From Halalkalicoccus jeotgali B3 (GTDB taxonomy: Archaea > Halobacteriota > Halobacteria > Halobacteriales > Halalkalicoccaceae): DNA of 64,000 nucleotides. The notes beneath the pieces were generated by a model, which saw nothing but the letters and a program-made list of their open reading frames with translations, did no database searches and was not told the origin of the DNA. Below, piece after piece: positions 16,011-20,454 of this stretch (the stretch's first letter is position 1; each line of letters begins with the position of its first letter). The DNA is taken from positions 2,277,770 to 2,341,769 of the forward strand of contig NC_014297.1 in assembly GCF_000196895.1 (NCBI RefSeq), given 5' to 3'. The position numbers and the translations under genes are program-made.

Positions 16011-17225
16011 TTACCCTTCGTAGCGCGTGATCGCCTCGATCTCCCGTGGGTCCATGTCGTTGAGGGCCTCGCGGGCGATCACGCGCTTGTGGACCTCGTC
16101 GGCCCCGTCGACCAGTCGGAACTGCCGGACGTTCTCGTAGAAGTCGGCGATCGGGAGGTCCTTGCCGATGCCGTTTGCACCACACAGTTGGAGACAGTCG
16201 TCGATCACGTCCTGGACCGTGTTCGCCGCAAAGACCTTCGCCATCGAGACGGGGATCCGGGCCTCGCCGCCCGAATCGATCTCGCGGGCAGCGTGGCGCA
16301 CCATCGTCCGGGCGGCGTGCAGGTTCGTCTCCGCTTCGGCGATCGTAAAGCGAACCGACTGTTTCTCGCCGAGCGATTCCCCGAAGGCCTCGCGCTCGCT
16401 GACGTAGGCCTTCGTCACGTCGAGTGCGCGTTCGGCCATTCCCGAATAGCGCATGCAGTGGGTGAGACGCGCGGGGCCGAGGCGCTGTTGGGCGTGGGAA
16501 AAGCCCTCGTTGCGCTCGCCGAGCAGGTTCTCCTCGGGGATCCGAACCCCGTCGTAGCGGATTTCGGCGTGACTCATCCCCGTGACTTCGCCACCCACAT
16601 GGGGGATGTCACGGACGATTTCGACCCCCTCGGTGTCGCTCGGGACGAGAAAGAGCGAACAGCCGGCGTAGGGATGGGCCTCCGGGTCCGTGCGCGCCAT
16701 CACGATCAGCACGTCGGCCTCCGATCCCTGCGTCGTCCACCACTTGTGCCCGTCGAGGATCCACTCGTCACCCTCCTTTTCCGCCTCGGTTTCGAGCATC
16801 TTCGGGTCCGACCCGCCCCCCTGGATCGGCTCAGTCATCGAGAATCCTGAACGAGCTTCCCCGGCAACGAGCGGTTCCAACCATTCGCCTTTCTGTTCGT
16901 CGGTTCCGAACAGTTCGAGGGTGTGCATGTTGCCCTCGTCCGGGGCGTCGACCCTGAGGGCGGCCGGTCCCAGCAGGCTCCGGCCGGCGGCCTCGAAGAC
17001 GGGTAACATATCGCGGTAGCTCAGGCCCTGTCCCCCGTACTCCTCGGGGAGGTGCGGGGCATACAGTTCGCGCTCGCGGGCGGCCTCGCGCAGCGTTTCG
17101 AGTTGCTCCTCCGAAGCCGGGCCGCTCCCCAGAACCTCCCGTTCGACGGGGATCACTTCTTCCTCGAGAAACTCGCGGGTCCGGCTGGCGAACTCGCGTG
17201 CGCGCCGTGTGTCGTCGTACTCCAT
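16011..17225 (-). CDS. Acyl-CoA dehydrogenase of the ACAD10/11-like branch
   Basis: Acyl-CoA dehydrogenase family protein of 404 residues. The start at 17225 gives MEYDDTRRAREFASRTREFLE, a normal N-terminus; a longer in-frame start (17294) would add 23 residues with no family likeness and would run through the promoter. Motifs: SGFSMTEPIQGGGSDPKM, GHKWWTTQGSEADVLIVMART, and near the end LCGANGIGKDLPIADFYENV, then FRLVDGADEVHKRVIARE. The DGADEVHKR block replaces the YEGTSEIQ block of ordinary enzymes and is characteristic of the ACAD10/11 type. It is divergent from an APH-type kinase, the partner domain fused to it in eukaryotes. A perfect 17-base inverted repeat lies just before its start. 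Confidence 0.9.
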   Translation of the reverse strand: MEYDDTRRAREFASRTREFLEEEVIPVEREVLGSGPASEEQLETLREAARERELYAPHLPEEYGGQGLSYRDMLPVFEAAGRSLLGPAALRVDAPDEGNMHTLELFGTDEQKGEWLEPLVAGEARSGFSMTEPIQGGGSDPKMLETEAEKEGDEWILDGHKWWTTQGSEADVLIVMARTDPEAHPYAGCSLFLVPSDTEGVEIVRDIPHVGGEVTGMSHAEIRYDGVRIPEENLLGERNEGFSHAQQRLGPARLTHCMRYSGMAERALDVTKAYVSEREAFGESLGEKQSVRFTIAEAETNLHAARTMVRHAAREIDSGGEARIPVSMAKVFAANTVQDVIDDCLQLCGANGIGKDLPIADFYENVRQFRLVDGADEVHKRVIAREALNDMDPREIEAITRYEG

Positions 17226-17229
17226 ACGG

Positions 17230-17246
17230 GTGTATCGGAGATACAC
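17230..17246. promoter_or_regulatory. Perfect inverted repeat GTGTATC-GGA-GATACAC, candidate operator
   Basis: Seven-base arms and a three-base spacer, both arms perfect. It lies between the minus-strand TATA element and the start codon of the ACAD10/11-like gene (5 bases upstream of the ATG), where a bound repressor would block transcription start. It is also in the shared control region of the divergent kinase gene. Confidence 0.6.
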
Positions 17247-17254
17247 TGTAAAAG
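17246..17254 (-). promoter_or_regulatory. TATA-like element of the ACAD10/11-like gene
   Basis: The minus strand reads CCTTTTACAG around this point, centred about 25 bases before the ATG at 17225, consistent with a leaderless mRNA. Confidence 0.5.
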
Positions 17255-17294
17255 GATTCCCCCAAGCGAGTGTCGGTTGGTAATCCCGTCCCAT

Positions 17295-17304
17295 AGCTAT
17301 TCAT
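17295..17304 (+). promoter_or_regulatory. TATA-like element of the APH-type kinase gene
   Basis: AGCTATTCAT, centred about 27 bases before the ATG at 17327, consistent with a leaderless mRNA divergent from the dehydrogenase. Confidence 0.45.
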
Positions 17305-17326
17305 ACGACGGGGGAATACTGACCCC

Positions 17327-18391
17327 ATGACCGATGCGAACGAGACGTACTTCGAGCGCCTCGTCGACGAGGAGGCGCTTGCCGACTATCTCGAAGGCGA
17401 ACTCGGCCCCGTCGAGGAGTACTCGGTCTCCCACCATCAGGAGGGACACTCCAACGAGACGCTGTTCGTGACGTGGGGCGAAGGAGAGTTAGTAATCCGT
17501 CGCCCGCCGCCGGGCGAGACCGCCGACACCGCCCACGACGTGCTCCGGGAGTACCGGGTGATGGACGCGCTGCAGGGGACTGACGTCCCGCTTCCCGACA
17601 CCCTGCTCGCCTGCAAGGACCACGACGTGATCGGCAGTGACTTCTACGTGATGAGTCGGGTCGACGGCGACGTTCTCAGGGAGCACGAACCCGAGCGGTT
17701 CGCCGATCACAGGGAAGAGATCGGCGGTGAACTCGTCGATTCGCTCGTCGCTATCCACGAAGTCGACCCGGAGGAGGTGGGGTTGGGCGAGTTCGGCCGA
17801 CCCGCGGGCTACACCGATCGGCAGGTCGAACGGTGGGGCACACAGATCGAGTGGGCCACCGAGGTCACGAGCGAGGAACGGGAGGTCCGGACGCTCAAGG
17901 AGGTCGGCGACTGGTTGGAAGCGAACAAACCGAACTCGCACCCACACACGCTGGTCCACGGCGATTACAAGCTCGATAACGTGCTGTTCGCGCCCGGGAC
18001 GCCGCCGGATCTGGTAGCGGTCCTCGACTGGGAGATGAGTACGCTGGGGGACCCGCTCGCGGATCTGGGTTGGATGCTCTCCTACTGGCGCGACCCGAAG
18101 GACCCCGAGCCGGCGATCCCCGAGCTCACCGCCCGGTTCATGGAGCGGGAGGGCTATTCCACCCGCGAGGAGTTGGTCGACCGATACGAGTCACGAACTG
18201 GATTCGAGTTCGAGCACGAGCAGTTCTACCGCGCGCTCGCTGTGTACAAACTCGCCGCGCTCGGCGAGATGTTCTTCCGGCGGTATCTGGAGGGGAACTC
18301 CGACGACCCGATGTATCCGAAGATGCGTGAGCGCGTCCCGGCGCTGGCGACACGAGCCGAACGGATCATCGAGGGCGAGGAGCCGCTGTAA
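17327..18391 (+). CDS. APH-family phosphotransferase (ACAD10/11 kinase-domain type)
   Basis: Kinase-like protein of 354 residues. The catalytic loop is LVHGDYKLDNVLF (His211, Asp213, Asn218), and the metal-binding block is AVLDWEMSTLGDPLADLGWML (Asp234). This DWE-S-T-LGDPLADLGW pattern marks the phosphotransferase subgroup found fused to, or beside, acyl-CoA dehydrogenases, not the antibiotic-resistance enzymes. The N-terminal nucleotide lobe contains VEEYSVSHHQEGHSNETLF and a strand with a Lys/Arg-rich end (ELVIRRPPPG). Eukaryotic ACAD10/11 use this domain to phosphorylate 4-hydroxyacyl-CoA. I infer the same here from the divergent dehydrogenase partner. Confidence 0.88.
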   Translation: MTDANETYFERLVDEEALADYLEGELGPVEEYSVSHHQEGHSNETLFVTWGEGELVIRRPPPGETADTAHDVLREYRVMDALQGTDVPLPDTLLACKDHDVIGSDFYVMSRVDGDVLREHEPERFADHREEIGGELVDSLVAIHEVDPEEVGLGEFGRPAGYTDRQVERWGTQIEWATEVTSEEREVRTLKEVGDWLEANKPNSHPHTLVHGDYKLDNVLFAPGTPPDLVAVLDWEMSTLGDPLADLGWMLSYWRDPKDPEPAIPELTARFMEREGYSTREELVDRYESRTGFEFEHEQFYRALAVYKLAALGEMFFRRYLEGNSDDPMYPKMRERVPALATRAERIIEGEEPL

Positions 18392-18576: not shown

Positions 18577-19305
18577 ATGAGTTCTCACGCAGGGGCTGAA
18601 GGCGTTCACGCAGTAGTGCTCGCCGCGGGGCTCGGCAGTCGGCTCCAGCCGCTTACCGACGGCACGCCGAAGACGCTGCTGGCCGTCAACGGCCATCCCA
18701 TTCTCGGACACATCCTCGATTCGCTCGCTGACGCCGGCTACGAACGAGTGACCGTCGTCACCGGCTACGAGGCCGAACAGGTCCGCTCGTTCTGCCAGCG
18801 CGACGACCGGCTCGACTTCGAGTTCGTCCACAACGAGACGTTTCAGCAGACGAACAACAGCTACTCGCTGTGGCTGGCGCGCGAACGGCTCCGGGAGGGG
18901 TTCGTGCTCGTCAACTCCGATACGCTGTTTCCGACCGCCTGCCTCGACAGGCTCCGCGAGCGCGAGGGGTCGGCGCTGGTCGTCGACAGGGTCACCGACC
19001 TGACCGACGAGAGCATGAAAGTCGCCGTCGAGGACGGACGGGTCCGCGCGATCGGCAAGGGGATCGACCGCGCCGACGGCGAATTCATCGGGCTCTGTAA
19101 GTTCGAGCCCGACGAGGCGTCGGCGCTGATCCGCTGTCTCGATAACCTCGTCGAGCGCGGCCTGACGAACGAGTGGTACGAGACCGCCTTTGACCGGCTG
19201 GCGACCGACCGGTCGATCGGCGTCGTCGAAGTCCACGAGGAGTGGATCGAGATCGACGACCGCGAGGACCTCCGGACCGGCCAGCAGCTCTGGGGAGAGG
19301 CCTGA
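18577..19305 (+). CDS. Nucleotidyltransferase, LicC/phosphocholine cytidylyltransferase-like
   Basis: Nucleotidyltransferase of 242 residues with the N-terminal signature VVLAAGLGSRLQPLTDGTPK, then TLLAVNGHPILGHIL. The NNSYSLWLARERL segment and the following VLVNSDTLF metal site resemble LicC-type enzymes that activate phosphocholine or phospho-alcohols with CTP, more than glucose-1-phosphate thymidylyltransferases. The chosen ATG (18577) precedes MSSHAGAEG. An upstream in-frame TTG at 18547 is less likely. The stop is directly followed by the GTG of the glycerophosphotransferase-like gene, so the two are coupled: one probably makes an activated CDP-alcohol that the other consumes. A T-rich stretch (GCGTTTTTGC) lies about 30 bases upstream of the ATG. 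Confidence 0.82.
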   Translation: MSSHAGAEGVHAVVLAAGLGSRLQPLTDGTPKTLLAVNGHPILGHILDSLADAGYERVTVVTGYEAEQVRSFCQRDDRLDFEFVHNETFQQTNNSYSLWLARERLREGFVLVNSDTLFPTACLDRLREREGSALVVDRVTDLTDESMKVAVEDGRVRAIGKGIDRADGEFIGLCKFEPDEASALIRCLDNLVERGLTNEWYETAFDRLATDRSIGVVEVHEEWIEIDDREDLRTGQQLWGEA

Positions 19306-20454
19306 GTGGGCGTTCCGGGACTCTCGATCCTCGCCCACCGCCTCGTCCATCCTCTCCCGCGCGACGAGTCGCTGTGGGTCTTCGGAACGCGCGGCGGCGA
19401 GGCCTTCGAGGGCAACACCAAGTACCTCTTTTTGGCCCTGCAGGAGGAGGAATCGATCCGGCCGGTCTGGCTCTCGAAGCGCGCGGCGACCGTCCACGAG
19501 CTTCGCGAAAACGGGTTCGAGGCCTACCGCACGGACTCGCTCCGGGGACGACTGACGATGCTCCGGGCGGGCGTGGTCTTCGTCACCGGTACGATGACCG
19601 ACATGGCGCTGTGGCCGACCGGCGGGGCGAGGGTCGTCCAGCTCTGGCACGGCGTCCCGCTGAAGCGTATCGCCGCGGACGCGCCGAGCTTCGAGGAGTT
19701 CTCGATCCGAGAGCGTCTCGGCCTTTCGTACACCTACCGGCAGTTCGACGCGTTGACCCTGACGGCGGCCGGGCTGGCCGACGCGTTTCGCTCGGCGTTC
19801 CGGATCGATTCCGATCTGCCGGTTACGGGCTACCCGCGAAACGACGCCCTGTTTCGCGAGATCCCCGGCGAGGACGTCGGCCAGCCCGAAAGCGCCCGTG
19901 GGATCCACGAGGACATCGACGCGGAGCGGCTGCTCGTCTACCTGCCGACCTACCGCGAGGACGGGTCCGACCCCGGAGAACACGTCGACTTCGAGCGCCT
20001 GGACCGGTTCCTCGCCGAGCGTGACGCGGCGTTGGTCGTGAAACTTCACCCCTTCAGCGACCCCGACTTCGATCCCGACCGCTTCGACCGCATCCGTCTC
20101 CTCCCGGCGGGCTCCGATATCTATCCCTTGCTCCGGGAAACCGACGCGCTCGTAACCGACTATTCGTCCGTTTACTTCGACTTCCTCCTGCTCGATCGCC
20201 CGGTCGCCTTCTACGCCTACGACCGCGAGCGCTACGAGCACCGTCCGGGATTTTATCACGCGTACGAACAGCTCACCCCCGGCCCCGTCGCCGAGACGTT
20301 CGACGGGCTGCTCGACGCGCTCGATCTCGTTCTCGACTCGCCCGAGGCACACGCCGACGAGCGCGAGCGCGTTCGGGCGTGGGCGTTCGATCACCATGAC
20401 GATCGCTCCGCCGAGCGGGTCCGGGAGTACGTTCGGGTGCGGTTCGGGGTGTGA
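19306..20454 (+). CDS. CDP-glycerol:poly(glycerophosphate) glycerophosphotransferase-like (TagB/TagF family)
   Basis: Protein of 382 residues starting with GTG immediately after the preceding stop. It carries the family motifs: VVQLWHGVPLKRI (catalytic His), TGYPRNDALFREI, LVYLPTYREDG, a short VVKLHPFSDPDF strand, and the donor-site block ALVTDYSSVYFDFLLLDRPV. In bacteria these peripheral membrane enzymes transfer glycerol-phosphate or ribitol-phosphate units to make teichoic acids and capsules. The size is that of TagB-like primases or single-domain polymerases. In haloarchaea the product would be a phosphodiester-linked surface glycan or lipid head group, which is inference. The donor is probably made by the coupled nucleotidyltransferase. 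Confidence 0.85.
   Translation: MGVPGLSILAHRLVHPLPRDESLWVFGTRGGEAFEGNTKYLFLALQEEESIRPVWLSKRAATVHELRENGFEAYRTDSLRGRLTMLRAGVVFVTGTMTDMALWPTGGARVVQLWHGVPLKRIAADAPSFEEFSIRERLGLSYTYRQFDALTLTAAGLADAFRSAFRIDSDLPVTGYPRNDALFREIPGEDVGQPESARGIHEDIDAERLLVYLPTYREDGSDPGEHVDFERLDRFLAERDAALVVKLHPFSDPDFDPDRFDRIRLLPAGSDIYPLLRETDALVTDYSSVYFDFLLLDRPVAFYAYDRERYEHRPGFYHAYEQLTPGPVAETFDGLLDALDLVLDSPEAHADERERVRAWAFDHHDDRSAERVREYVRVRFGV

Follow-up and report, generated by a model that had tools for sequence, protein, structure and literature searches.

A conserved haloarchaeal gene pair for a LicC-type nucleotidyltransferase and a TagB/TarF-type transferase, and its possible role in glycerol-phosphate decoration of surface glycans

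Teichoic acids and related capsules offer the closest described counterparts of the gene pair analyzed here. In the wall teichoic acid pathways of Bacillus and Staphylococcus, the substrate is activated with CTP by TagD/TarD, and TagB/TarF then carries out glycerophosphotransfer from CDP-glycerol to an acceptor. The haloarchaeal pair would follow the same logic, and its transferase is a homolog of TagB/TarF (family PF04464) that retains both catalytic histidines. The activating enzyme, in contrast, is a LicC-type nucleotidyltransferase (NTase) unrelated to TagD/TarD, no linkage-unit genes are linked to the archaeal pair, and the envelope concerned is an archaeal one. The TagF-like capsule polymerases Bcs3 and Cps3D likewise share the PF04464 domain and are structural matches of the transferase, but each of these is a large polymerase with several domains and more than 1100 residues. 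The pneumococcal CDP-2-glycerol genes, as listed in PMC3493582, comprise a dehydrogenase, an NTase and a putative phosphotransferase beside a putative glycerol phosphotransferase; unlike this gtp1-gtp2-gtp3/wchX group, the module of the window's type consists of NTase and transferase alone. Finally, the NTase resembles LicC, PntC, IMPCT and CpgD in fold, Arg-Lys-Asp active-site residues, size and NN-x-YSL block, but differs from them in having a PF04464 gene as its genetic partner.

We consider it fairly probable that the pair is a two-step module for decoration with glycerol phosphate, in which CDP-glycerol would be made by the NTase and used to modify a surface glycan. The proposed chemistry is known from teichoic acids and related capsules, and archaeal PF04464 proteins have already been annotated. 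A literature search of incomplete coverage found no description of the haloarchaeal NTase-PF04464 pair or of a LicC-type source of CDP-glycerol in archaea, and no direct account of haloarchaeal CDP-glycerol transferases. If the proposal is right, archaea assemble teichoic-acid-like glycerol-phosphate groups with an activating enzyme different from that of bacteria.

The gene pair and its products

The window is a stretch of 64,000 nucleotides from Halalkalicoccus jeotgali B3, and the features of the pair are collected in Table 1. Both open reading frames were found as the original prediction described them, with the stop codon alone between the NTase and its GTG-started neighbor (GCC TGA GTG GGC across the junction). 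No start other than this GTG is plausible: the first start-type codon that follows it in frame is a TTG at codon 43. A recent horizontal import of the pair was rejected, since its GC and GC3 equal those of the neighboring genes (0.670, compared to a window mean of 0.663).

Table 1. Features of the NTase-transferase pair in the window
Feature	Coordinates	Strand	Start and stop	Basis
LicC-type (COG1213-like) cytidylyltransferase, 242 aa	18577..19305	+	ATG at 18577; TGA at 19303-19305	Pfam, PDB match, fold, invariant residues
Proposed role of this product: CTP:glycerol-phosphate cytidylyltransferase	18577..19305	+		Sequence, fold, genome context
TagB/TarF-type CDP-glycerol glycerophosphotransferase, 382 aa	19306..20454	+	GTG at 19306; stop at 20452-20454	PF04464, TarF model, histidines, fold
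TGAGTG junction, NTase stop abutting transferase start (translational coupling)	19303..19308	+		Same junction in relatives

The NTase matches Pfam NTP_transf_3 (3e-15). Its top PDB sequence match is the phosphocholine cytidylyltransferase LicC (1jyk, 9e-19), followed by an archaeal CTP:inositol-1-phosphate enzyme, and its TNNSYSLWLAR block aligns with YNNFYSLYLVK of LicC. When the AlphaFold2 model (pLDDT 93) was compared to known structures with Foldseek, PntC ranked first (TM 0.86), followed by LicC and IMPCT/IPCT, all of them CTP-using enzymes for phospho-alcohols or phosphonates, with sugar-1-phosphate enzymes lower in the list. The modeled fold thus points to CTP as the probable nucleotide, and the cytidylyltransferases among the closest structures support the earlier suggestion that the donor is a CDP-alcohol, as opposed to a nucleotide sugar. 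In the alignment of the conserved haloarchaeal type (class A, see below), R22, K32, N113-x-D115, WYE and W-x-E-I-D are invariant and GE[YF]IG is conserved. The active-site Arg, Lys and Asp of LicC-type (COG1213) enzymes are therefore all present, R22, K32 and D115 corresponding to R16, K26 and D112 of IMPCT (PMC12275187); the Arg and Lys also align in LicC. At 24-25% identity to the solved enzymes among LicC, PntC, IMPCT and CpgD, the sequence is unassignable to any of these specificities.

In the transferase, the PF04464 domain (Glyphos_transf, 4.3e-69) occupies residues 12-376 and spans profile positions 4-365 of 367. TarL (8va1) and TagF (3l7i) are the top PDB sequence matches, and TarF scores best among the NCBIfam models (1.8e-29, under the strict cut-off of that model). 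Residues H115 and H248 align with the catalytic H444 and H584 of TagF and are invariant in a 24-row alignment. The AlphaFold2 model (pLDDT 90) has the GT-B fold of TagF, and Foldseek ranks 1-20 are all TagF, TarL, Bcs3 or Cps3D. The sequence contains no strongly hydrophobic segment; a predicted N-terminal helix (residues 4-13) probably keeps the enzyme on the inner side of the membrane.

Does the transferase build a chain? Polymerising TagF and TarL carry extra N- or C-terminal regions and reach about 560-750 aa. The 382-residue haloarchaeal enzyme has no domain beyond the catalytic one and lacks these polymerase-type regions. Such a single-domain, TarB/TarF-sized design does not imply a long polymer, and one or a few units are likelier than a long chain. 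The surface polymer that had been envisaged was therefore not borne out.

Conservation of the pair and distribution of PF04464

Among 392 genomes of the order, 19 close NTase homologs were found (about 49-100% identity), and every one adjoins a PF04464 gene with which it shares a strand; 18 keep the gene order and one has it reversed. We refer to this arrangement, an NTase gene directly beside a PF04464 gene as in the window, as class A. The adjacency is beyond chance. The TGAGTG junction is found in the window and six relatives, with an overlapping GTGA in four others, and this recurrence argues that translational coupling is conserved. In the NTase tree, the class A enzymes form a separate archaeal clade (support 100/99). 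The original prediction treated the LicC-type NTase and the TagB/TagF-type transferase as a linked module and proposed a search for the adjacency in other haloarchaeal genomes; the search upheld the linkage, none of the 19 close homologs having an unlinked partner.

The same prediction called teichoic-acid-like chemistry a bacterial trait, which proved overstated. Within the order, PF04464 matches, some of them weak, occur in 103 of 392 genomes and 35 of 95 genera, or about a quarter of haloarchaeal genomes, and they occur in 35 of 295 genomes of a phylum-wide sample, nine of the 35 being members of the order. Existing annotations of haloarchaeal copies already read CDP-glycerol glycerophosphotransferase.

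What would the acceptor be? No glycan genes flank the pair in the window genome, where the neighbors are an acyl-CoA dehydrogenase/APH pair, a thiamine-diphosphate enzyme and a transporter. Elsewhere, several class A loci (L069 of Halovivax asiaticus, L072, L073 and L080) lie among genes for glycosyltransferases, flippases, O-antigen-ligase-type (Wzy-type) proteins and a polysaccharide deacetylase. By analogy with these loci, the acceptor in the window genome is most likely a lipid-linked surface glycan. No evidence was found for a modified polar lipid, the other product suggested earlier.

As a separate observation, the divergent acyl-CoA dehydrogenase and APH-family kinase genes at 16011-18391 of the window, outside the pair, resemble the ACAD10/ACAD11 pairing.

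The activated alcohol

TagD was expected to be absent, and this was confirmed: none of 24 genomes passes the cut-off of the TagD model (TIGR01518, HxGH type), the best score being 41 bits against 165. A TagD elsewhere in the window genome was ruled out as well, because none of its three PF01467 proteins, RibL-, NadM- and CoaD-like by eye, passes the model. Most likely, the NTase takes the place of TagD as a non-orthologous enzyme and makes CDP-glycerol. In the first step of the proposed pathway, it would join CTP and glycerol phosphate to give CDP-glycerol. In the second, judging from its family, the PF04464 enzyme would move glycerol phosphate from CDP-glycerol onto a hydroxyl of a lipid-linked surface glycan; CMP would be released, and the glycan would gain a negatively charged phosphodiester.

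The main evidence for glycerol comes from a sister lineage. In a methanogen genus of the same phylum (g98; methyl-coenzyme M reductase was found), five loci have the order PF04464, LicC-type NTase, GpsA. GpsA is an NAD(P)H-dependent sn-glycerol-3-phosphate dehydrogenase; the g98 proteins carry PF01210/PF07479, reach 212 bits against a cut-off of 257 for the NCBIfam subfamily and have 1z82 as closest PDB entry. In five g98 genomes PF07479 is present as a single copy, located at the PF04464-NTase module, and in a sixth genome with PF04464 (G474) GpsA shares a contig with PF04464, at a distance of 8 kb. PF07479 is absent from g98 genome G585, which has no full PF04464 gene, from 13 of 13 haloarchaea and from four archaeal control genomes. 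With a supply of sn-glycerol-3-phosphate encoded beside a LicC-type NTase and a glycerophosphotransferase, the g98 module is best read as a CDP-glycerol pathway, the GpsA linkage being a feature of this one genus. The original prediction held that the NTase could make a different CDP-alcohol; this is possible, but the GpsA linkage points to ordinary glycerol phosphate. The g98 NTases also have the class A pocket signature (NxD, GE[FY]IG, WxEID). Counting against glycerol for class A, they form a clade of their own, distinct from class A, and LicC-type enzymes are promiscuous.

While GpsA is linked in the g98 methanogens, no glycerol-phosphate-making enzyme is linked at class A haloarchaeal loci. 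Lacking such a partner, the class A enzyme should use a standing metabolite, and the pool would be either sn-glycerol-1-phosphate, the lipid precursor in every archaeon, or sn-glycerol-3-phosphate formed by glycerol kinase; a glycerol kinase (710 bits) is encoded in the window genome away from the pair. Perhaps the class A enzyme is a CTP:sn-glycerol-1-phosphate cytidylyltransferase with the LicC fold, in which case a haloarchaeal surface glycan would be decorated with the archaeal enantiomer of glycerol phosphate via CDP-1-glycerol. We regard this narrower version as doubtful, albeit a serious candidate. CDP-1-glycerol does have an archaeal precedent in glycerophosphoinositol synthesis (cited in PMC8262930). 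If true, the route would parallel bacterial teichoic-acid chemistry by convergence, with the opposite enantiomer. For the gene pair in general, a single purified enzyme allows a direct test of which stereochemistry glycerol phosphate has in a surface glycan of archaea.

The strongest rival donor is CDP-glycerate, made by CpgD-like chemistry: the NTase would activate 2- or 3-phosphoglycerate, and the PF04464 enzyme would transfer phosphoglycerate to a lipid or glycan. Phosphoglycerates are central metabolites that need no dedicated enzyme, and the LicC-type (COG1213) CpgD of Caulobacter uses them, while giving no product from glycerol-1-phosphate (PMC12275187). Even so, we judge this donor unlikely, given that the transferase scores best as TarF, a CDP-glycerol enzyme, and that the GpsA and GlpA-like enzymes encoded at other archaeal loci handle glycerol phosphate.

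CDP-choline, CDP-ethanolamine or the donor of another cationic phospho-alcohol would fit with LicC as the best sequence match of the NTase, and a methanogen PF04464 locus where a CobD-like PLP enzyme and an NTase form one fusion protein suggests phosphoethanolamine. However, the amine is contacted by an acidic residue in both LicC (D105) and PntC (E104) (PMC6697681), and class A NTases differ from the two in carrying the invariant Asn113 at this position, an assignment on which automatic alignments differ by one residue and which was judged from the metal-binding Asp. This replacement argues against a cationic substrate, and no LicA-type choline kinase is linked; we consider such donors distinctly unlikely. 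A phosphocholine route through the upstream APH-family kinase was rejected, as that gene pairs with the acyl-CoA dehydrogenase and, in a sister species, has two genes between itself and the NTase. Asn113 was also rejected as proof of a glycerol substrate, since Asn-Gly-Asp occurs in sugar-1-phosphate enzymes too; it speaks only against a cationic substrate.

A sugar-1-phosphate enzyme that takes UTP or dTTP, and that lies near the transferase merely through a common glycan context, is quite improbable: the fold is common to RmlA, GlmU and MurU, and the top NCBIfam score is for an archaeal GlmU subfamily (though 94.8 is far below the cut-off of 292.1), but CTP enzymes come first both by sequence and by structure, and the coupling with PF04464 is strictly one-to-one. 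Synthesis of CMP-aminoethylphosphonate for phosphonate tailoring, as suggested by the top structural match to PntC, is very improbable, for the locus has no PntC-type partners, and the route was rejected because the window genome has no PEP mutase match above the cut-off.

Other operon types

A further 42 NTase homologs (mostly 33-45% identity) were compared, 29 of which sit 1.1-2.1 kb downstream of PF04464 on the same strand, in open frames of about 500-900 aa. In the example that was scanned, a GDPD gene intervenes and the NTase continues into a HAD domain of the NagD type; we call this order class B. Pfam confirmed HAD and GDPD at a single haloarchaeal locus, and HAD in two NTases from bacteria; gene calls in distant loci are mechanical. 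In sister loci a xylose-isomerase-like protein, a zinc ADH and an SDR come next, and two loci (L061, 5649-11521; L062, 5838-9780) show the operon as PF04464, GDPD, NTase-HAD (NagD-type), TIM-barrel isomerase and ADH (SDR in sister loci). Class B also takes in, with support of 99/99, bacterial NTase-HAD fusions beside PF04464 from a Sulfurimonadaceae and from a gammaproteobacterial MAG. Compared by gene list only, pneumococcal gtp1-gtp2-gtp3 and wchX resemble the class B operon (PF04464, GDPD, NTase-HAD, ADH, SDR). By that analogy, the fused HAD domain may help to make the substrate, as proposed for the gtp genes. A search of plasmids with the class B NTase-HAD protein returned ordinary HAD-IIA hydrolases and nothing else, so that no gtp genes of pneumococcus were among its matches. 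Given these different partners, PF04464 enzymes of haloarchaea may not always handle glycerol phosphate.

Several other loci carry still different partners. In a fen archaeon (L186, 4758-6631), a LicC-type NTase gene overlaps one for a GlpA-like protein (glycerol-3-phosphate dehydrogenase subunit A), divergent from PF04464. The methanogen fusion of a LicC-type NTase to a CobD-like aminotransferase, preceded by PF04464 (L187, 4598-7647), suggests CDP-ethanolamine or CDP-serinol as the donor there. At five 4 kb loci (L003, L010, L011, L012 and L016), one of them on a Halorussus plasmid, an NTase with CGD instead of NxD adjoins PF04464; these haloarchaeal enzymes possibly represent a third specificity. 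The pattern points to the NTase and its partner as what determines the alcohol, which PF04464 would then transfer. Lineage by lineage, the transferase family appears to be paired with differing LicC-type enzymes and differing makers of the substrate. Such a code could help to predict which phospho-substituents the surface glycans of archaea carry.

In two haloarchaeal loci (L076, 11954-16523; L078, 10217-14840), genes for a PPDK_N/PEP-utilizer protein of about 1040 aa, a Peptidase_C26/GATase and a LicC-type NTase lie near several PF04464 genes. This cluster resembles the phosphoramidate (MeOPN) genes Cj1418-Cj1417-Cj1416 of Campylobacter, and by that analogy it is a possible archaeal CDP-phosphoramidate pathway.
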